This document shows, piece by piece, positions 6,474 through 25,418 of a DNA stretch of 26,246 bases; positions within the stretch are counted from its first letter, which is position 1, and every line of letters begins with the position of its first letter. The stretch comes from a virus: positions 1 to 26,246 of the IMG/VR virus record IMGVR_UViG_3300043119_000276. One strand, given 5' to 3'. Both the position numbers and the translations under genes were made by a program. Under the pieces are notes generated by a model that was not told the origin of the DNA, did not search any database, and saw only the letters and a list, made by a program, of their open reading frames with translations.

Positions 6474-9071
6474 TCAGCGCCCCGCGCGGCTCAGGCCATA
6501 CGCGCCTTGGAGCGCCTCGGCAGCATCGCCGCCGCTGCGGATGTTGCGCACGAACACGTTGATGATCTGGCGATCCATGTCGTCGGTTTTTTGTTCCACT
6601 TTGCCCGCCTTGCTGTTGTCTTCGATGATGTTGACGATGGCCGGTGCCGACTTGCTTTCGCCGCTGTACCCAGGCTGCGCTGCGCTGACGTAGCCGCCAT
6701 CGGCATAGCCGGTGTGCAGCGATGCGCGAAACGCCTCAAAAGCGGACGGCCCGCCCATGGCGCCAATGTCGCGCTGGCTCAGAACGCCCTCGCCTTTGTG
6801 CACCATACCGGCCACGTCGAACTTTCCGCCCGCGCCGGTATAGCCGCCGTCTGCAAAACCGGCCAGCGCCATGCCTTGGCTCAGTGCAACAGTGCTGGCA
6901 ATGCCCAGGCTGGCCGGTGCCGCATTGGCACCGAAAGATGCGAGAGACGCCATGGCTGCCGCAGGTGCCCACGCTGCTGCCGTTGCAGAGCCTGCTGCTA
7001 CCGCAGTGGCTACGCCCGCTGCCTGTAGCGTGTCGCCCAGCAGCTTGTGCAACACCATCTGCGTGCCCATCTTGATCAGCATGCGCAGCACGTCTTCAGC
7101 GATGCCGGAGAACAGCCCTTGCATATCCAGCTTGCCGGTCTTGACAAACTCAACCAAGGTGTTTTCCATCGCTCCAAAGGCATCTACCACAAGCTGCTGT
7201 GTCTGACCGTACACATCTCGAGAACTCTCCATGTAGCTCTGAAGGCCAGCCATGGCACCGGCCTGCCAGTCTTCTTCCTTCAGGCGCTTTTGCGCGATGT
7301 ATTCGTCATACATAGCGAGTTCTTGCGCCAGCGCCTCTTTGGTCAGCTCTAGCCGCTCGGCATACTGGGCATTGATGCGCTCCACATCGCTGTCAGAACC
7401 AGCGCCCGCAATCGCGTTGGCCTGATCCTGGCGCATCTTGTCCATCTTCTGCTGGTACTGGTCCTGCAGGCCGATGCGCTCGCGCATTTCAGCGACGGCC
7501 TTGGCGCCCAGGCCATAGCCTGCCAGCTCCAGCGCGTACTGGTTTTGTTTGCCGAGCAGAACGTCTTGCACTTCATACAGCGCGTTCTGGCGTTCGATCT
7601 GTGCGGCCTTGGTCTTCTCGGACTCTTTGGCCATGTCGATCGCCGTCACCAGTCCGATGGCCTTATCCATCTGGCCTTCTGATAGATTCAAGCCCTTGAG
7701 CTGCAGGTCAAAGAACAGTTGTTCGTAGGCTGTTTTTTCCTGAATTTTGAACGCCTGCGCCTGCAGTTGCTGGACAAACTTTTCTGCCGCGTCCGCGTCT
7801 TTTTCGGCCTGGCTTTTGCCGCTGGCGCGCCCGCCCTTCTTGTCGCCGTCCTTGAGATTGACGATGCCGGGGGAGCGCGGGGCGAGGTCGGGGGCGAGGA
7901 TGGGTGCTAAATCTGGCGTAGTTGTCTGGTCCAAAGTAAGGCGCGCTTTTGCCCCTTTGAGCTTTCCTTCCAAGACGCTGATCTGCCTGTCCAGATCGCC
8001 AACATCACCGAATAGAAAGTCGTTCAGCTTATTGGTTACGGACTTTGACGGGTCTAGCTCATCCCGCTGCTTTTTCAGCCGGTCGATTTGGCTGGTTACG
8101 GTGTCTACCGTGCCTTTGATGTCGTCAGCTTCTTTATTGCTGACAGACAACCACCCCCAAATTCCGCCGCTGTTCAATACTGCCGCTGTCCTGGCGGCTT
8201 GCGTGGCAAGGCCTGCCATGAACGAGATCAGCGTCTGAAATGCAGCGCGTGTTTCTTCAGATGACAGCGTGGCGTTCAGCCCATCCACGCTCTTCTTCAT
8301 CTGCGCCATGCTGCCGCTGTCGCCGGTCAGCAAGTCATTGATGGTGTTTTGCAGCGCCGTCAACGCGCCGCCGAACGTGTCGCGCGCAGCTGCTGCCGCG
8401 CCGCCATAGCTTTCGTTCAAGGCATCCAGCACCATCTGCTGCGCCTGGGCAATCTGGCCGGTACGCTCCAGCTCGCGCGCCACTTCGATTTGCGATTCGG
8501 AGAACTTGAACCCCTGCTTTTGCAGCGAGGCCATGCCCACACTGGGCACATCGAGGGCGCGGCCCATGATCTCGGCAGATGCCTGGATGGTGGAGCCGGT
8601 GCGCGCAGCGTGGTCGGCTGCGGCCTGCAGTGCTGCGGGCAGCTTGTCGCCCACGATGTTGGTGAAAGCCAGCAGCACGGTTTGCGCGCTGTTGACGTCG
8701 CCAGCAGCCACGCCGAGCGATTGCTGCATGGCGTCTGCCATCTGATTCAGGCGCTCCTGGCTGTAGCCTGCGGCGTTGCCTGTGGACTTGAGCACGGCCT
8801 GCAGTTGCGCCTGTTCCTGTTCGGCCTGTTTGGTTTCAGCAATAAACTTTTGGAACACCGCGCCCACGGCGATGCTGGAGAACACCGCGCCAATTGCCGT
8901 GCCCACATTTGCCCAGGCTTCCTCTGTCTCCTTCGCTCGTTTGCGTGCGGCTGCAGAGATTTCCCGGCCCTTTCGGTCTGCAGTGCGGGCGGCGCGGTCC
9001 ATGCCCTGCTCGAAGCCGCCGATCTTGGCGATAAGGTCGAGCGTAAGGGTGCCCAGGCTTCTTGATGCCAT
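6474..9071 (-). CDS. Tape measure protein
   Basis: The 865-residue protein sets tail length. N-terminus SLGTLTLDLIAKIGGFEQGM is the standard opening of the TMP_2-type (lambda H-like) prophage tail length proteins. The segment at about 60-260 is a conserved helical domain (SIAVGAVFQKFIAETKQAEQ ... TGSTIQASAEIMGRALDVPS), followed by long charged coiled coils (about 300-600). A hydrophobic Ala-rich stretch (about 690-735) can insert in the membrane at DNA entry, and the Gly-rich C-terminal region is typical of tape measures. The start at 9071 has only a weak ribosome-binding site, and a terminator hairpin lies 14 bases upstream, so its level may be held below that of the tube protein. Confidence 0.93.
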   Translation of the reverse strand: MASRSLGTLTLDLIAKIGGFEQGMDRAARTADRKGREISAAARKRAKETEEAWANVGTAIGAVFSSIAVGAVFQKFIAETKQAEQEQAQLQAVLKSTGNAAGYSQERLNQMADAMQQSLGVAAGDVNSAQTVLLAFTNIVGDKLPAALQAAADHAARTGSTIQASAEIMGRALDVPSVGMASLQKQGFKFSESQIEVARELERTGQIAQAQQMVLDALNESYGGAAAAARDTFGGALTALQNTINDLLTGDSGSMAQMKKSVDGLNATLSSEETRAAFQTLISFMAGLATQAARTAAVLNSGGIWGWLSVSNKEADDIKGTVDTVTSQIDRLKKQRDELDPSKSVTNKLNDFLFGDVGDLDRQISVLEGKLKGAKARLTLDQTTTPDLAPILAPDLAPRSPGIVNLKDGDKKGGRASGKSQAEKDADAAEKFVQQLQAQAFKIQEKTAYEQLFFDLQLKGLNLSEGQMDKAIGLVTAIDMAKESEKTKAAQIERQNALYEVQDVLLGKQNQYALELAGYGLGAKAVAEMRERIGLQDQYQQKMDKMRQDQANAIAGAGSDSDVERINAQYAERLELTKEALAQELAMYDEYIAQKRLKEEDWQAGAMAGLQSYMESSRDVYGQTQQLVVDAFGAMENTLVEFVKTGKLDMQGLFSGIAEDVLRMLIKMGTQMVLHKLLGDTLQAAGVATAVAAGSATAAAWAPAAAMASLASFGANAAPASLGIASTVALSQGMALAGFADGGYTGAGGKFDVAGMVHKGEGVLSQRDIGAMGGPSAFEAFRASLHTGYADGGYVSAAQPGYSGESKSAPAIVNIIEDNSKAGKVEQKTDDMDRQIINVFVRNIRSGGDAAEALQGAYGLSRAGR

Positions 9072-9329: not shown

Positions 9330-9500
9330 TTATCGAATCGGCGTGCCGTCCATGTAGCTAGTCGGTGCCGGCATGTCCTGCGGATCGTCCACTTCGCCCA
9401 TCAGGCCGCGAATCGTCTCGGCCTGCGCTTGTATCGTCTTCGCCTGCACCGCTACTGTCTCCAGCAGCAGGCGCAGCGAATCGTTGCTTGAATCGCTCAT
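9330..9500 (-). CDS. 56-residue coiled-coil hypothetical protein
   Basis: The ORF from ATG 9500 encodes MSDSSNDSLRLLLETVAVQA then KTIQAQAETIRGLMGEVDDP and ends at TAA 9330. The residue make-up is natural, with a heptad-like helix over residues 8-38 and an acidic, Pro-rich tail. A GGAG lies 11 bases before the ATG, which is far. It overlaps the 67-residue cysteine-containing ORF (9358-9561) out of frame for most of its length. It may be an assembly helper or spacer in the tail module; no family is recognised. Confidence 0.55.
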   Translation of the reverse strand: MSDSSNDSLRLLLETVAVQAKTIQAQAETIRGLMGEVDDPQDMPAPTSYMDGTPIR

Positions 9501-9561
9501 ATGCGAGTTCGCTCCATTGTTTGAGCCATGCGCGCCGCTCTGCGCAGCCTTTACAGCTCAT
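9358..9561 (-). CDS. 67-residue protein with N-terminal CxxC motif
   Basis: [20 protein letters not shown] begins at ATG 9561, whose ATGA overlaps the stop of the chaperone fusion and has AAGGAA upstream, so translation coupling is well supported. CKGC followed by a basic Trp-containing helix recalls small metal-binding proteins often found after tail chaperones or in lysis modules. Past about residue 28 the sequence becomes Gly/Asp/Arg-rich and disordered-looking, where it overlaps another ORF in a different frame. A longer start at 9567 is possible. Function unknown. Confidence 0.55.
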   Translation of the reverse strand: MSCKGCAERRAWLKQWSELAYERFKQRFAAPAAGDSSGAGEDDTSAGRDDSRPDGRSGRSAGHAGTD

Positions 9562-10162
9562 CGCCATTCCTTCATGGCCCTGTCCAGCGCGGCTTCTTCG
9601 TCTGCGGTGCGCTGGGGCAGGTAGTCGGACAACTGGCCGCGCCCGCCGTTGGCAAAGTAGGCCGTCAGCCCTGCGCCCTGCTCTATGCGCAGGCCCAGGT
9701 TCAACCCGCCATGCTTGCGCCGGTATTGCACCCAGGTTTGCAGTTCGTCTTGTGGCATGCGCTCCTTGGCCTCCGCGATGGTGGCGCCGCCGATGCCGTT
9801 AAGCACCAGCTCGCACCACAGTTCGTCGTCGGCCGTCAGGCTTTTGGGGCGCCGACATCCTTCACGGCTTGCACCAGCGCGAAAGCCAGGCTGGGATCGA
9901 GCTGGTAGGCCTGTTCGTAGCTCAGGGCTTCTTGCTCTTCTCCCAGCAAGATGCATTCGCTCAGCATCTTGGCGGACTTGCTGCGGTCTTCGCCCAGCAT
10001 TGCCACACGCTCCAGGGTGCCAAACGAGCGGCGGCGCACCCACACGTCGAACGTGGTGGTGATCTCTTCGCCCGCCGCATTGGGGCGCGCCCAGGTGACG
10101 GAGGTTTTGACGGGCGCGGCCTCCACAAAGGCGCCCGCTGCCTGCAACTGGGCGAGGTTCAT
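9558..10162 (-). CDS. Tail assembly chaperone fusion (GT-like) made by -1 frameshifting
   Basis: Reading begins with the G-like chaperone at 10162 and slips one base back at the heptamer C CCA AAA (9848-9842), three codons before the G stop. It then continues as [20 protein letters not shown] to the TGA at 9558, giving about 201 residues. The second ORF has no plausible start of its own between the slip site and MPQDELQ, which argues that it is made only by frameshifting. In lambda and many siphoviruses the G and GT products hold the tape measure in solution and recruit tube protein in a fixed ratio. The position between tube protein and tape measure is canonical. Confidence 0.82.
9836..10162 (-). 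CDS. Tail assembly chaperone, G-like short form
   Basis: The 108-residue product ([20 protein letters not shown]...) is the zero-frame chaperone. It has a beta-strand N-terminal half and a helical C-terminal half ([20 protein letters not shown] ... [13 protein letters not shown]), as in the lambda G family. The ATG at 10162 overlaps the stop of the tube protein gene (ATGA). Its last codons GCC CCA AAA GCC TGA hold the slippery site for the longer fusion. A frame extension upstream of 10162 is only the shadow of the tube gene. Confidence 0.85.
9842..9848 (-). promoter_or_regulatory. -1 ribosomal frameshift site (CCCAAAA)
   Basis: Read on the minus strand, the heptamer C CCA AAA fits the X XXY YYZ rule: both the P-site (CCA to CCC) and A-site (AAA to AAA) tRNAs can re-pair after one base of slippage. 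The zero-frame stop follows one codon later (GCC TGA), and the -1 frame is open for about 95 codons. Confidence 0.85.
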
Positions 10163-10653
10163 ACCTTGGGCACCCAGGCCGAGCCGCCGCTGCGCTGAAT
10201 GGCGACAGCGGTGGACACCACGGCATTGCCTGCGAAGTCGAACGGGAAGTCGCTCACGTAGCCCTGGAAGGTGAACCAGGTGCGCGTGGCGGGCAGGGTG
10301 AAGTCGGTGCCACCCACGGCAATGGTAGGTGGAACGCCCACGCCATCGCTCCAACCGATGGCCCACTTGATGGGGGTGGCATCGTCGGACTCGCTGAGCT
10401 GGTGCAAGCGCACATGGCTTGCATTGCGCGGGTCTGCGTTGATGGTCAGGCTTGCCTGGCCGGGCGTGCGCAGGCCGCGCAGGTAGCTACGGGCGTTGGT
10501 TTCTTCCAGGCAGGTGTCTTCGATCTGTTCTGCGGGCGAGCCGCCTGGGTTGAAGGCGGTGGCGCATTCAACGTTCAGAATCTCGAACACAGCGGGGTCG
10601 GCAACGGTTGGCACCAGCGCATAGACCTGGGTGCCTTGGGTAAGCATGCTCAT
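10159..10653 (-). CDS. Major tail tube protein (lambda V type)
   Basis: The 164-residue protein ([20 protein letters not shown]...) forms the tail tube. It has the recognised tube pattern: an early 'T.Q..vyal' strand, an acidic loop with [14 protein letters not shown], a '[13 protein letters not shown]' strand and the C-terminal [20 protein letters not shown] segment that resembles lambda V and N15 tube proteins. The order (DUF3168 protein, tube, chaperone, tape measure) matches U-V-G/GT-H in lambda. A strong terminator hairpin lies upstream (10675-10696). Overlaps the chaperone start by ATGA. Confidence 0.88.
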
Positions 10654-20117: not shown

Positions 20118-20278
20118 TACCCGGTCGGGGCGCCCAGTGACGTCCCCGCAACCGCGCCGCAATGGGGGCGTGTAGCGCCCTCCAGCCCTTCGGGCACGCT
20201 GGCGCGAATCACGCCTCCCCCAGCGTTTGCGGCACGGCGCGTTTGTTGCGCCGAGACCGTTTGGTCAAAGCGGCGCAT
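20117..20278 (-). CDS. Possible 53-residue small protein
   Basis: ATG 20278 with AGGA nine bases upstream opens MRRFDQTVSAQQTRRAANAG, which runs for 53 codons to TAG 20117. It lies 48 bases after the antirepressor gene on the same strand. The sequence is short, Ala/Gly/Arg-rich and not recognised, so it may be chance; the ribosome-binding site and the position are its only support. Confidence 0.3.
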   Translation of the reverse strand: MRRFDQTVSAQQTRRAANAGGGVIRASVPEGLEGATRPHCGAVAGTSLGAPTG

Positions 20279-20326
20279 GGTCACCGTTCCTGTGTTGTTG
20301 AACCATATGCATCACAAGGCCAGGGC

Positions 20327-20974
20327 TCAGCCCTGCAACGCCTCAAGGTGCGCCTGCATGCGTGCCATGCGGCGCGCATAGGCAAATGCCATCACTTCCT
20401 CAGGGGCGGCGTAATGCACGACACCCTGCACATCCCAGTCATGCACGTAGTCCGGGCTGTGCTCGCCGCCGCTCTGGGTGTGGCCTGCCAGCTCCCACAG
20501 CAAATAGTCCCGGCACGTCTCTGCCAGCTCGCGCCCCATGGAATTGGCCTTCTGGTTCACCACCCGCTGCTGGTGCCGGTTCAGGTGCGGCAAGCCGCGT
20601 TGCTGTGCAAACTTCTCCAACAGCTTCGATCCCAGGAACCCCGGGCGCTGGTAGCCGCCCGTTTTGCGGATGGAGGGCAGCACCTCACTGGTCACCCACC
20701 GCTTAAACCGCTTGGCTTCGGGCTTGGTGCTGCCGAAGATCAGCGCGTAGAGGCCGGACTCGTTGATGTGGTTGGCCATTTGCTTGCCGCCGTTGCCAAG
20801 GACCTCCAATTTCTGGAGGTCCTCCCCATCGACGTGCGTCGAGATGGCTTGCCAAGGATTTCCGAAGCCCAGCACATTACAAATCTCGTTGGCGTTAAAC
20901 CAAGGGCTTCCGGATTCATCCATCACAACACGGATGGACTTGTTTTCAAAATTGAATGGGGACAGTTGATTCAT
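20327..20974 (-). CDS. BRO-N domain antirepressor
   Basis: The 215-residue protein has an N-terminal BRO-N domain (about 1-105): SIRVVMDESGSPWFNANEIC, NVLGFGNPWQAISTHVDGED, LINESGLYALIFGSTKPEAK-type block and RFKRWVTSEVLPSIRKTGGY. These are hallmarks of phage Ant proteins. The C-terminal half is charged and helical and probably carries the partner-specific part. Antirepressors inactivate the prophage repressor to trigger lytic growth. The ATG overlaps the previous gene's stop (ATGA) and there is no strong ribosome-binding site of its own, so its translation should depend on that gene, which is where the C4-like RNA acts. Confidence 0.9.
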   Translation of the reverse strand: MNQLSPFNFENKSIRVVMDESGSPWFNANEICNVLGFGNPWQAISTHVDGEDLQKLEVLGNGGKQMANHINESGLYALIFGSTKPEAKRFKRWVTSEVLPSIRKTGGYQRPGFLGSKLLEKFAQQRGLPHLNRHQQRVVNQKANSMGRELAETCRDYLLWELAGHTQSGGEHSPDYVHDWDVQGVVHYAAPEEVMAFAYARRMARMQAHLEALQG

Positions 20975-21309
20975 CGATCGCTCCGGTTGAGGTTAAGAGA
21001 GGGCGTCCAGTTTCTGGACGCCCCTTGCACAACTGCCCGCTGCTGGGCAACCATGTACTGGGATCGCGCCTCCTGCAGCAACCGCTCGCAGGTTTGCACG
21101 AAGGTGCGGGCTTGCTCCATGGAGGCGTGCGCATCGACAGGCTTGGCTTTGGCCGAAAACTTGCGATCGAGCTTCCAGCGGCTCAGGTTGATGATGTGGG
21201 GCGGCCTGCGCCCCGGCCCGCGCTGCTGCAGCACCGGGTGCGGCGCTGCGCTGGGCAAGGCAATGACCCGCGCAGCTGTGCGCGCAGGCAATGAAAGAGA
21301 GTGAGCCAT
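20971..21309 (-). CDS. 112-residue leader ORF coupled to the antirepressor (Icd position)
   Basis: MAHSLSLPARTAARVIALPS starts at ATG 21309 behind a strong GGAGG. The middle is basic (RRPPHIINLSRWKLDRKFSA) and the second half helical (ASMEQARTFVQTCERLLQEA). It overlaps ant by ATGA. The position equals icd in phage P1, where translation of icd is needed for ant translation and both are blocked by C4 antisense RNA. I do not see similarity to Icd itself beyond layout. The same frame is open upstream through the RNA, as in other Icd/Ash-type loci, so a longer protein is possible. Confidence 0.65.
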   Translation of the reverse strand: MAHSLSLPARTAARVIALPSAAPHPVLQQRGPGRRPPHIINLSRWKLDRKFSAKAKPVDAHASMEQARTFVQTCERLLQEARSQYMVAQQRAVVQGASRNWTPSLNLNRSDR

Positions 21310-21319
21310 GAGTGGCCTC

Positions 21320-21329
21320 CAAGCGGTGC
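21320..21329 (-). promoter_or_regulatory. Target site for the C4-like RNA at the leader-ORF ribosome-binding site
   Basis: On the minus strand GCACCGCTTG lies directly before the GGAGG Shine-Dalgarno of the ORF starting at 21309. It is perfectly complementary over ten bases to CAAGCGGTGC in the structured RNA (21404-21395). The next target bases GGAGGCC can pair with GGCCTGCC of that RNA (21420-21413) with one bulge, which would mask the Shine-Dalgarno. Confidence 0.65.
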
Positions 21330-21368
21330 GGTTTGCTACAACCACCTCACCCCCTGCTAAAGGGTGGC

Positions 21369-21446
21369 GGTGGCTCGAACGGGTAGCAGACCGGGCACCG
21401 CTTGCGCGAACCGGCAGGCCCTCGCGGGCCTCCCGTCCGAGCCACC
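21369..21446 (-). ncRNA. c4: C4-type antisense RNA controlling the antirepressor
   Basis: Read on the minus strand, 78 nt fold into a three-way junction. The closing helix is GGTGGCTCGGACGGG with CCCGTTCGAGCCACC (15 pairs including one G-U). Hairpin one is AGGCCC-GCGA-GGGCCT with a GNRA loop. Hairpin two has CCGG pairs and TCGC-GCAA-GCGG, again a GNRA loop. C4 RNAs of P1/P7 are about this size, lie before icd/ant on the same transcript, and bind the ribosome-binding region to silence ant. Here the unit lies downstream of the primase gene and 60 bases upstream of the leader ORF of ant, with a ten-base complement at that start. Family call by structure and context; not checked against a covariance model. 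Confidence 0.75.
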
Positions 21447-21586
21447 AAAAACTGGAGGCACAGACAACGAAGCCGCATGAACTGCGGAACAGAACTGCGG
21501 CTTGCGTCGCAGCGGTGCTTCGGGCTGCTAACCCGGTCACGCCCATGTTGGACGCGACCGAGCAAGTGTACCCCAGCTGGCAACCA

Positions 21587-24298
21587 TTAAAACGGTTCAT
21601 CGTCAGCGTCCTGTTCTTCAACTGGTTGCGCGGCTGCAGGTGCTGCAGGCGGCACAGCGCCGGGGGGCGATGGCAGTGCATCCAGCCCGCCAGAGTCGTC
21701 CTCGGTGGGCGGCCAGTTCTTGGGGCGTACATATCCCCAGGCGCGCGCGCCGTTCACCTGCTTCTTCACCCGCTCCCAGCCCTCATGCTTGAGCCATGCC
21801 GTGATCTGGCCCTGCAGTCCCGGCGTGCTCTTGGCAGAGTCCACGCCCAGCGCCAGGGTGATCTGTGCCAGCGTCACAAACTCAGCCAAGGTGTTCACGA
21901 TGGCGCCAATGCCCGCCGCCACCGGTGGCCGCGTCAACACATGCAGCAGGTCACTCTCCACCGCCGTCTCCACCAGGCGGCTTTCCTGCATGGGCACAAA
22001 CAGCCGGCGCTCTTGCTCTGGCGTGGGCGTGTAGGCCACCCCTTGCTGATACAGCACAAACGCCTCTGCCAGCAGCTGCTCACGGTACTTCGCCACAAAC
22101 TCGGTGTTGATCACATGCCGCACCGGTATGGGCCAGAAGCGCCGGTTGCCCGTGCGGTCCCGCAGATAGGTGTTTTCGTTCGTGGTGCCCACCAGAATGC
22201 ACTGGCGTGCAAAGCTCTCGGTGGTGGTGCCATAGGCCACCCGGTAGCGGTCCACCTTGCTGCTGATGAACGCCTTGATCGCGCCCACCTCGGCCTTGCT
22301 GAAGTGCGTCAACTCGGCAATCTCATACAGCCACAGGCCTTGGACTTGCTCCTGCGCTTCCTTGCCACGGCCCACCTCAAAAGGCGTGTCGCTGAACCAC
22401 TGCGAACCCGCCAGCACTTCCACCAGGGTGGACTTGCGCAGCCCGCCCACGCCCTCCAGTACCGGGCAATAGTCAAACTTGCAGCCGGGCTCCATCACGC
22501 GGTACACCATGCCCAGCAGCCAGCAGCGGCCCACAATCTGCAGGTATTCCAGCAGCGCCGGGTTCAGGGTTTCAGGGCTCTCGCCCAGTGCATGCACCAG
22601 CCACTTGTCAATGCGGCTGGTGCCATCCCACTGCAGGCCCACCAGCATCTCGCGAATGGGGTGAAACCGGCGCGTGTGCGCCACCGTCTGGATGGCCTCC
22701 GACAACGACGCCCGCGAAATGCTGGGCAGCCCATAGGTGTCGGTGAGGTACTTACCCAGCAGCAGATCCACCGCATTGGTCACATCGCCCACCTTGGCAT
22801 GCGGCCACGGCCACACCATGCGCGCCTGGATGTTGTTGCTCAGCTCGTTGAAGGCCAGCACATCCTGCAGCACTGGGTCGCGCTCCAAGATCAATATGAC
22901 CATCTTGCGGCTGGCGAGCCAGCGCTTGTTCGCCTTGTCGTAGTACGGCACCAGCCAATCCGGCACCATGTACGCGCCAATGCGGGTCAGGCCCGTGCTG
23001 TCGTCGCCGTCGTCGCCATCATCGTGGCCTGCGCTGCCGCCTGGGGTGTTGCCACCGCCACCAGCACCACCACCTGCGTTACCACTGCCCCCGGGGCCAC
23101 CGGGGCCATCGATTTTTTTACCGCCCGCCAGATCGGCGCTGGCGTCCTGCGGCAGTGCATGCGCCTGCGCAAAGAAGGCTTGCACGCGGGCAAAGTCCCA
23201 GCCATCCGTCTCGATGGCGTCACGCGCGTCCCAGCCATCGACCACAGCACCCGGCGCAGGAATGGGCAGCAGCTGCACCTTGCAGAAGTGCGCATCCCGC
23301 AGCAGCGCGCCAATGCCCAGCATCGCGGCCATGCCTGGTTGCTTGTGCACTGGCAGCAAGGGCTTGGCCTGCTGCAGCACCAGCTGCGCGGCCTTGTCGG
23401 GGGTGGCCTTGCGCTCGGCCGCGGTCAGGGGTTCGCGCTTGGCATCGCAATCTGCCCAGGCCAGCACCGTGCAGCCCTGCAGCCACGCCCAGTCGGCCTT
23501 CTGCCACGCCTTGCTGCCACCGGGCCAGCTGGCCACGCAATACACGCCGGGCGCACCGGCATCCAGCAGCTGTTGCAGGGCCTCGCCCTTGCGTTCACCC
23601 TCTACCAGCACCACCGTGCGGTCACCCGGCAGCTGGTGGCCCGGCAGGTACAGCGGGCGGGGTTCATCCCACTGCCGCCAGTGCCACTTGGCTGCACCAT
23701 CGCGGGCGCTCTGGCACCAGGTGTAGGGCAGCGTTTCCTTGCCGCCATCGCTGGTGCGAAACCGCACCACATAGCCGTGCAACTCATCGCCCACCTGGTA
23801 GGTGGCCGTGTGCTCAATCGTGTCTGCCGCCCGGTGAAAATGCTTGAACGTGGGGGCCACCGCATGGGCTGGCACCGGCAGCACCGTGGCCCAGCCCTCG
23901 GGCTCTGCCATGGGCTTTGTTGCAGGTGCGGGACGTGCGGGCGCTGGTGGCGGCGGCGTGCCACCGGCCGCAGCCTTCACCAACCCGGCCACACTCTCCA
24001 GGCCCTCTTCGCGCGCCACCTGAATGGCGGCCTTGGCTTGGCTCAGGCCATGGATGGCGGCATACAGGCTCAGCAAGTCGCCGCCCTTATCATCGCTGGC
24101 AAAGTCGGCCCAGCAGCCATTGGTCAGGTTGACAGAGCAGCTGCTGCCCTTGCCACCACTGAGCGAACCGCACACATATTCATGGCCCCGCTGTTCGCCA
24201 TCAGGCAACCACATCGGGACCAGTCGGTCAGCGCTGGCCAGCAAAGCATCAGCCAGCGCCGCAAAGTTGATTGGAGGCAACGGTGGGCGCAGCATCAT
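21587..24298 (-). CDS. Primase-helicase: TOPRIM domain plus VapE-type ATPase
   Basis: The 903-residue replication protein starts MMLRPPLPPINFAALADALL. The N-terminal region (about 35-90) has the 'G.....CS.N..tg.W.DFasddkGGDlisLya' block of phage primases. TOPRIM motifs are VVLVEGERKGEAL (about 229-241) and VLAWADCDAK (about 277). A Gly/Asp-rich linker (about 393-430) leads to a virulence-associated E ATPase: Walker A GVGGLRKST (about 615), Walker B LWLYEIAEL, then TNENTYLRDRTGNRRFWPI with the arginine finger. The Pro-rich C-terminus ends DADDEPF. It should prime and unwind phage DNA. A TTG at 24316 could add six residues; ATG 24298 fits better. Confidence 0.92.
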   Translation of the reverse strand: MMLRPPLPPINFAALADALLASADRLVPMWLPDGEQRGHEYVCGSLSGGKGSSCSVNLTNGCWADFASDDKGGDLLSLYAAIHGLSQAKAAIQVAREEGLESVAGLVKAAAGGTPPPPAPARPAPATKPMAEPEGWATVLPVPAHAVAPTFKHFHRAADTIEHTATYQVGDELHGYVVRFRTSDGGKETLPYTWCQSARDGAAKWHWRQWDEPRPLYLPGHQLPGDRTVVLVEGERKGEALQQLLDAGAPGVYCVASWPGGSKAWQKADWAWLQGCTVLAWADCDAKREPLTAAERKATPDKAAQLVLQQAKPLLPVHKQPGMAAMLGIGALLRDAHFCKVQLLPIPAPGAVVDGWDARDAIETDGWDFARVQAFFAQAHALPQDASADLAGGKKIDGPGGPGGSGNAGGGAGGGGNTPGGSAGHDDGDDGDDSTGLTRIGAYMVPDWLVPYYDKANKRWLASRKMVILILERDPVLQDVLAFNELSNNIQARMVWPWPHAKVGDVTNAVDLLLGKYLTDTYGLPSISRASLSEAIQTVAHTRRFHPIREMLVGLQWDGTSRIDKWLVHALGESPETLNPALLEYLQIVGRCWLLGMVYRVMEPGCKFDYCPVLEGVGGLRKSTLVEVLAGSQWFSDTPFEVGRGKEAQEQVQGLWLYEIAELTHFSKAEVGAIKAFISSKVDRYRVAYGTTTESFARQCILVGTTNENTYLRDRTGNRRFWPIPVRHVINTEFVAKYREQLLAEAFVLYQQGVAYTPTPEQERRLFVPMQESRLVETAVESDLLHVLTRPPVAAGIGAIVNTLAEFVTLAQITLALGVDSAKSTPGLQGQITAWLKHEGWERVKKQVNGARAWGYVRPKNWPPTEDDSGGLDALPSPPGAVPPAAPAAAQPVEEQDADDEPF

Positions 24299-24375
24299 GC
24301 CAACACCCCCGTGCAAATTTCACAGAAACCGGCGTCTCCACCGCCAGCGGCATCGTGCATCAAGGTCATGAGGTG

Positions 24376-24669
24376 CTAGCCGCCCCATGCCCGCAGCACG
24401 CTGCCAAGGTCTACAAAGCCCGCCTGCTCATCCGGCATCAGGCCGGCGGGCACGTATTCGGCCACGGGCCGGTTGCGGTATTCCACCTCGCGCTTGCGTG
24501 CAATGCAAAGCTGCCCCGCGCGGCTCATGTTCTTTGCGGTCTGCGTGGCCGCCTTCAGGCCCACGCAAGCCACCGCTGCCATCTCGCGCAACGTGGCGCC
24601 CCGCTCAGGCGTTGCCAGCTCGCTGCAGGCGTTCAACAGCGCCACGCGCACTTCACCCGCCGGCCTCAT
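24376..24669 (-). CDS. Small helix-turn-helix-like protein in the replication operon
   Basis: The 97-residue protein starts MRPAGEVRVALLNACSELAT at ATG 24669, which overlaps the previous stop (ATGA). Residues 2-55 read like a winged helix: VALLNACSELATPERGATLR, EMAAVACVGLKAATQTAKNM and SRAGQLCIARK, followed by a strand (REVEYRNRPVAEYVPA). A role in DNA binding, perhaps at the origin, is inferred from this and from the neighbouring primase; I recognise no named family. The 77 bases after its stop contain no gene before the primase. Confidence 0.75.
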   Translation of the reverse strand: MRPAGEVRVALLNACSELATPERGATLREMAAVACVGLKAATQTAKNMSRAGQLCIARKREVEYRNRPVAEYVPAGLMPDEQAGFVDLGSVLRAWGG

Positions 24670-25163
24670 GCTGCAAACCCTTCGCGCGCCTTCCAGCGCT
24701 CCATGGTGCGCTGGTGTTTGGCATCCAGGTGGCGCATCAGGCCCTGGCCATCGGCCACCAGCGCGGCCCACTTGGCGTGCACATCGGCCAACTCGTTCTT
24801 GCTGATCTGGCCATCGGCATCGGCGCTTGTGGCCGCCGTCACCAGGTCGGCAAACTCGCGCATCAGCTGCGCCAGCGCCTGGCCCGTCACGGCATCACTG
24901 CCATCCTGCCCGGCGGGCAGCAGCACCAGCATGCCGCCCACCGCCTCAGCCACGCGGGTGGGGTATTCCACCCCGTGCGCGCCACCCAGCTCCACACACA
25001 TGGCGGCAATCTCGGCAGCATCCACCGCGCCCATCTTGTACTGCGGCGCACCACGCAACTCTTTCTCCAGCGTGCTGGGCGACTTGCCCAGGCGTGCGGC
25101 CACGGCATCGGTGCCACCAGGGTAATGGCGCACAGCGCGCCGCAAAGAATCAAGCAAGTCCAT
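24666..25163 (-). CDS. CII-type phage regulatory protein (CP76 family)
   Basis: The 165-residue protein opens MDLLDSLRRAVRHYPGGTDA then VAARLGKSPSTLEKELRGAP, the helix-turn-helix block typical of the Phage_CP76 regulatory CII family, followed by an Asp/Glu-rich pocket (AAEIAAMCVELGGAHGVEYP) and the GGMLVLLPAG strand. The helical C-terminus should oligomerise. CII-like proteins switch lysogeny promoters. I prefer ATG 25163, eight bases after AAAGG; an ATG at 25172 has too short a spacing. It is the first gene of the replication operon. Confidence 0.85.
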   Translation of the reverse strand: MDLLDSLRRAVRHYPGGTDAVAARLGKSPSTLEKELRGAPQYKMGAVDAAEIAAMCVELGGAHGVEYPTRVAEAVGGMLVLLPAGQDGSDAVTGQALAQLMREFADLVTAATSADADGQISKNELADVHAKWAALVADGQGLMRHLDAKHQRTMERWKAREGFAA

Positions 25164-25418
25164 CACATCCACCTTTCAAAACGCTATCGACCGGCGGCCA
25201 CCGTGCGCAACACACTGCAGCCATGCAAAAAAAGCACCCCACCACGCCACCATGCAAAGCGCCGCGCACCTGCCCGCGAGCGGCGCACCTTGGTTATGGG
25301 GAGGAGGTAGGCCCCGGCAGCACAGCCGTGGGCGTGGGGGGTGGCAAAGGGTGGGCGCCCGCAGGCGTGGCAGCACAATGGAGTTCTCACACAACCACTT
25401 GCCATGAGAGGGGCGCCC
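25164..25418. other. 255-base divergent control region between CII-like and plus-strand gene
   Basis: No gene is convincing here. A seven-pair inverted repeat GCGCCGC (25259-25265) and GCGGCGC (25280-25286) could form a hairpin in early transcripts. A run of seven A at 25227-25233 gives a T-run on the minus strand but lacks a clear stem before it. TTTGCATGG occurs twice on the minus strand. The region should contain the promoters of both flanking genes, or an antitermination site in a transcript started at the Cro-like promoter. Confidence 0.45.

Follow-up and report, generated by a model that had tools for sequence, protein, structure and literature searches.

Genes and reading frames of the tail chaperone locus

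The stretch of DNA analysed here, called the window throughout, is a 26,246-base IMG/VR virus record on whose minus strand lie, in this order, tail tube, G-like tail assembly chaperone, T-like frame and tape measure (Table 1). Both outer neighbours are recognised by their Pfam families (PF16460 and PF09718), which places the two chaperone frames between tube and tape measure, as originally predicted. The start ATG of the G-like gene (hereafter G) overlaps the tube stop codon (ATGA), and the end of G reads, on the minus strand from 9850 to 9836, GCC CCA AAA GCC TGA. Past a −1 slip on C_CCA_AAA, translation would continue as AGC CTG ACG GCC GAC GAC GAA CTG TGG (SLTADDELW) through the T-like domain (hereafter T) to a stop at 9560-9558. 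The original prediction had set the end of the heptamer three codons before the zero-frame stop; it is the CCA codon that starts there, and only GCC separates the heptamer from TGA.

Table 1. Features of the tail chaperone locus and its neighbours in the window.
Feature	Coordinates	Strand	Evidence
Tail tube protein	10159..10653	-	PF16460 E 2.5e-67
G-like tail assembly chaperone, zero frame, 108 aa	9836..10162	-	PF16459 E 2e-18; phrog_1749 E 9e-23; dN/dS 0.25 vs L003
SD-like AAGGA, putative 5' stimulator	9858..9862	-	anti-SD duplex -5.5 kcal/mol; synonymous shuffle
Slippery heptamer C_CCA_AAA	9842..9848	-	direct reading; kept in L002, L003, L146, L005, L229
Zero-frame stop TGA	9836..9838	-	one codon past heptamer
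67-nt RNA hairpin, putative 3' stimulator	9768..9834	-	shuffles; dS 0.26 vs 0.80 outside (L003)
T-like domain, -1 frame, 94 aa	9558..9842	-	phrog_337 E 4.6e-16; dN/dS 0.17 in -1 frame
Tape measure protein	6474..9071	-	PF09718 E 1e-21; phrog_339 E 2e-55

Direct reading of the frames also bears out the claim that T is open to 9558 and has no start of its own nearby, the closest start codons in its frame being ATG 9956 upstream and GTG 9806 downstream. Upstream of T, the −1 frame of the window is accidentally open to 10256; the near-identical relative L008 has a stop in this frame 99 nt upstream of T. From its sequence, T is classed as T-like through its phrog_337 match and its position, and not as a member of PF06223, against which it scores 18.7 bits (E 0.0025), below the curated cut-off of 25.9 bits. 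A 69-aa minus-strand ORF (9358-9567) starts just inside the end of T, running across the T stop; it is without a Pfam match, and its PHROG matches are weak only (E 0.014 and 0.022). Elsewhere in the window, the plus strand from 20162 to 25310 holds three long ORFs (380, 1023 and 307 aa) with no Pfam match at E 0.001.

The heptamer is more than a chance match. Among 5037 codon positions in 12 chosen minus-strand ORFs, only six carry an in-frame X_XXY_YYZ, and C_CCA_AAA at 9848-9842 is the sole one of these with a shifty lysine codon. When the codons of G are shuffled, the probability of V_VVA_AAR within the last 15 codons is 0.005 and that of any X_XXY_YYZ is 0.026.

Slip motifs at homologous junctions

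Scans with G, T and their alignments, together with phage records, gave 304 homologous loci besides the window. Records could be parsed for 302 of these 305 (L057, L061 and L235 could not) and yielded 206 unique junctions after exact copies were dropped; the window served as seed for this set, which also contains repeats from the same contigs, and for both reasons it should not be read as an unbiased census. At 202 of the 206 unique junctions T is in the −1 frame relative to G, and either a slippery heptamer or the A_AAG tetramer is present at 201 of those 202. The remaining four were called same-frame by the script, yet GGGAAAG or AAAAAAC is visible in them by eye.

Across the unique junctions, GGGAAAG is found 100 times (and twice more with a second heptamer), AAAAAAC 56 times, GGGAAAA eight, CCCAAAA five, AAAAAAG and AAAAAAA three each, CCCAAAG once and GGGTTTC once (far upstream and doubtful), and 22 junctions have the A_AAG tetramer without a heptamer. 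At the tetramer junctions (L013, L017, L034, L059, L145, L159, L160, L165 and others), which read GCA_AAG_AGC/AAC_TGA or similar, the tetramer occupies the place of the A_AAA_AAC of relatives. One locus, L119, has the T motif but no slip motif at the junction, and its upstream sequence seems unrelated. The later junction tests use 201 of the 206, leaving out the four same-frame calls and L119.

Many siphoviruses use a −1 slip at their tail chaperones, usually at GGGAAAG-like heptamers. CCCAAAA is indeed the rarer form, at 5 versus 100-102 of the 206 unique junctions. A frame-blind pattern scan for CCCAAAR followed by a gap of 6-30 bases and the T motif returned 62 stretches and 51 unique CCCAAAA/G junctions, and in all 51 T is open in the −1 frame. 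The branch of the window itself retains CCCAAAA: loss of the heptamer in close homologues, named beforehand as the observation that would speak against frameshifting, was not seen in L002, L003 or L146, and the heptamer is also present in the diverged L005 and L229.

A Burkholderiales host is likely for the window phage: the best genome relative, L146, is recorded as Pantoea sp. 18069, but family searches around it and around an Acidovorax MAG list the same genomes. The close-relative search with the family of L146 matched 2 of 399 genomes, one being G001 itself, and that around G003 likewise matched 2 of 399, one being G003 itself.

Sequences flanking the slip site

The original prediction did not include two parts of the site, an SD-like element upstream and an RNA hairpin downstream. 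The AAGGA at 9862-9858 lies 9 nt before the heptamer, within the 6-17 nt given for SD-like sequences by Sharma et al. 2014 (PMC4066793), and its predicted duplex with the anti-SD amounts to −5.5 kcal/mol. Such elements recur across the family: in 90 representatives, anti-SD pairing energy peaks for the 8-mer ending 6-10 nt before the slip site, and 67 of the 90 have a 4-base SD core 5-20 nt upstream of it, whereas the other tested offsets give between 1 and 26 of 90. Shuffling G synonymously never gave SD pairing as strong, either over all 90 representatives (0/300) or within the AAAAAAC class (0/300); for the GGGAAAG class alone this test is weak (23/300). All five CCCAAAA junctions among the representatives have an SD-like element (−5.5 to −10.8), and several in the wider CCCAAAR set are weak.

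Downstream, a 67-nt hairpin closed by a GGCC/GGCC base begins 7 nt after the heptamer, and agrees with the description in PMC4066793 of a 17-140 nt hairpin 4-10 nt after the motif that starts with a G-C pair followed by at least three pairs. Dinucleotide shuffles give z −3.2 for a 100-nt segment, and only −1.2 and −1.4 for segments of 60 and 135 nt. Under permutation of synonymous codons, which keeps the protein, the folding excess is z −4.4 in the window, −3.5 in L003 and −3.0 in L146 (0/150 in each), and two control windows further downstream have none. Synonymous divergence is low in the hairpin, with dS in the hairpin codons (T codons 1-24) at 0.26 versus 0.80 beyond them for L003 and 0.19 versus 1.16 for L146; dual coding cannot explain these low values, as the zero frame has already stopped there. 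Constraint at the nucleotide level on this segment is evident from these comparisons. By synonymous permutation, no significant hairpin excess is seen in L005 and L229, both relatives with CCCAAAA (z −0.5 and −0.3); L347 and L369, from the same contigs, gave z −1.8 and −1.4 when the segment and the shuffle were slightly changed.

Covariation is clearest in a related fold. In 43 non-GGG sequences of the His10 type (alignment A4, 43 of 45 selected, leaving out L012 and L333), GCCGCCGA pairs with UCGGCGGC, and this stem scores 0.166 versus 0.120 ± 0.007 in shuffles that leave the relatedness of the sequences in place (0/500), slid controls reaching at most 0.100. The window-type fold was also tried on 49 sequences, nearly all Cys10 (alignment A5, without L071, L321 and L345 of 51, the window standing in for L002, and L003 being added), and was set aside as a common fold: it scored 0.128 versus 0.119 shuffled, reached by 15/500, with 0.115 when slid by −3, and on the five closest sequences its score was reached by 54/500, which is no clear support. 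A related Cys10 core fold fared likewise (19/500). RNAalifold found no common structure on the His10 or Cys10 homologue alignment, and an Rfam search of 9600-10200 returned no match at E up to 1. The exact fold drawn for the window comes from three related sequences and is put forward only weakly, its covariation in the wider set being weak.

Conserved protein sequence and GC content could by themselves have produced the hairpin, which would then have no role in an otherwise real frameshift. The hairpin does sit in the most conserved part of T, and both the RNAalifold result and the weak window-type covariation would fit such an origin. However, none of 150 protein-keeping shuffles folds as well in the window, L003 or L146, both relatives show suppressed synonymous change over T codons 1-24, and the related fold covaries in the 43 His10-type sequences; we therefore regard a by-product as unlikely, and a stimulatory role of the SD-like element and the hairpin as likely.

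How strongly the downstream segment folds differs between classes of slip motif. Among the representatives, excluding the single GGGTTTC case, the 34 non-GGGAAA sites have a mean fold z of −1.72 versus −0.68 for the 55 GGGAAA sites (Mann-Whitney p 6e-4), and a control window downstream shows no difference between the classes. For the AAAAAAC class, the fraction of synonymous differences rises from 0.17-0.27 over T codons 0-26 to 0.50 over codons 38-50, and for the GGGAAA class it stands at 0.51-0.55 over codons 8-26. Many CCCAAAR sites lack a clear hairpin, as only 10 of 26 CCCAAAR representatives have z below −1.64. A trade-off between SD strength and hairpin strength was considered and rejected, the two being uncorrelated over the 90 representatives (Spearman 0.07, p 0.51).

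GGGAAAG is among the shiftiest motifs in E. coli. We tentatively suggest, at somewhat less than even odds, that slip motif and stimulators evolve together, GGGAAAG sites being mostly without a hairpin and AAAAAAC, A_AAG and CCCAAAR sites more often with one, and that pairing partners have been rebuilt between the His10 type and the Cys10 type of the window, possibly under the influence of a host with a separate tRNA-Lys(CUU) for AAG. A pattern search for tRNA-Lys found three CTT and one TTT forms in the Burkholderiales-type genomes G001 and G003 and only TTT (five matches) in an Enterobacter genome; neither form was matched in the Pseudomonas genome G403. As a reason for AAA over AAG, host lysine tRNA provides no strict rule, since L216, which is located in G003, has CCCAAAG.

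Proposed mechanism and known systems

Selection on T follows the frame that slippage would open. Compared with L003, the first 68 codons of T have a dN/dS of 0.17 when read in the −1 frame, as opposed to 1.23 and 1.84 when read in the two other phases, and G compared with the same relative gives 0.25 in frame and 2.38 in the T phase. T is under purifying selection in the −1 frame only. Together with the frames, the heptamer, the protein families and the homologous junctions, this supports the original prediction that a −1 frameshift joins the two tail chaperone ORFs.

Based on the above data, we propose that a lambda/HK97-type programmed −1 frameshift yields two tail assembly chaperones from a single start, a reading to which we give a probability of about 0.92 from the sequence comparisons. 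The frames, the heptamer with its conservation and the −1 selection on T are read from the sequences themselves; for the occurrence and rate of slippage at this site, the effect of the stimulators and the part played by the products in tail assembly, we infer the following. Most ribosomes would read G until they reach TGA 9838. The minority that slip would hold CCA in the P site and AAA in the A site, re-pair one base back on CCC and AAA and go on with AGC CTG, producing a fusion of about 201 residues. The slip frequency is probably set or increased by the AAGGA 9 nt upstream and by the strong hairpin that begins 7 nt downstream. By analogy with lambda gpG/gpGT, G may coat the tape measure and the T part of the fusion may recruit tube subunits. 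On the same analogy, G should greatly outnumber GT in the cell, with neither protein present in virions.

T could instead be a separate gene, started at GTG 9806 or at ATG 9758, in front of which lies an AAGGAG, or be reached by termination and reinitiation at CTG 9839, which overlaps the TGA. The deposited annotations of the phage records L058, L059, L062, L064 and L065 do treat T as an ORF of its own that starts later and is not joined to G. However, the strongest conservation of T precedes both GTG 9806 and ATG 9758, a start codon stands at the 9758 position in just 74 of 201 junctions, and CTG is the leucine codon that overlaps the stop in 74 of 201, most of the others having CTC or CTA. 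A T-frame start codon from −30 to +6 nt around the T entry point occurs at only one of the 201 junctions. Independent initiation of T, which the original prediction had named as contrary evidence, is very improbable on account of this scarcity of start codons near the slip, at the 9758 position and at the overlapping leucine codon; no start codon is conserved for T. Transcriptional slippage or a +2 shift could yield the same frame at a site with a short A run, but the window site has only four A residues, the conserved elements are different heptamers (GGGAAAG, CCCAAAR) without long homopolymers, and the codon-phased motif, SD-like spacing and hairpin suit ribosomal slippage, which leaves these routes the least probable of all.

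The −1 ribosomal slip proposed here has clear counterparts. With lambda gpG/gpGT and the HK97-type chaperones (PF16459) the locus shares the order tube-G-T-tape measure, the −1 relation, a heptamer near the end of G and a start-less T. The lambda slip site is G_GGA_AAG, whereas in the window the site is C_CCA_AAA, flanked by an SD-like element and a strong hairpin. Upstream SD-like element, slippery heptamer and downstream hairpin are also combined in E. coli dnaX (PMC3711429); dnaX, however, slips on A_AAA_AAG to a shorter product, whereas the fusion in the window is longer. The function of G/GT and slippage on A_AAG are treated in a 2016 review (PMC5009743), the GeneTack study of 2013 (PMC3711429) gives 6-7% frameshifting in two genes belonging to an HK97-like chaperone cluster, and frameshift prediction is addressed by PRFect (PMC10885494).

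The original prediction had called the CCCAAAA heptamer worth measuring. This is partly right, but Sharma et al. (PMC4066793) had already measured all 64 heptamers in E. coli, and C_CC.A_AA.A is placed there above 0.10% without stimulators, in the efficient V_VV.A_AA.R group. Those reporters carry the same heptamer as the window, in a synthetic context with other stimulators and another host. The same study predicts a conserved hairpin in three of five phage clusters. In a search that fell short of most subscription journals, no publication describing either a tail chaperone with CCCAAAA or the window hairpin came up. With earlier measurements available and many relatives using it, the heptamer itself adds little.

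The locus is thus best described as a genuine −1 frameshift of the ordinary lambda type. Its coding switch is well supported, and a conserved RNA hairpin and a ribosome-binding-like sequence probably tune the slip; the class-dependent distribution of these likely stimulators is the part worth following. For annotation, the reading corrects to one fused tail chaperone what deposited records of relatives give as two genes. The homologue set also makes testable whether weaker slip motifs are accompanied by stronger stimulators that keep the G:GT ratio in range. If motif and stimulators do evolve together, the family would offer a natural experiment on how a steady product ratio is achieved via different signals.
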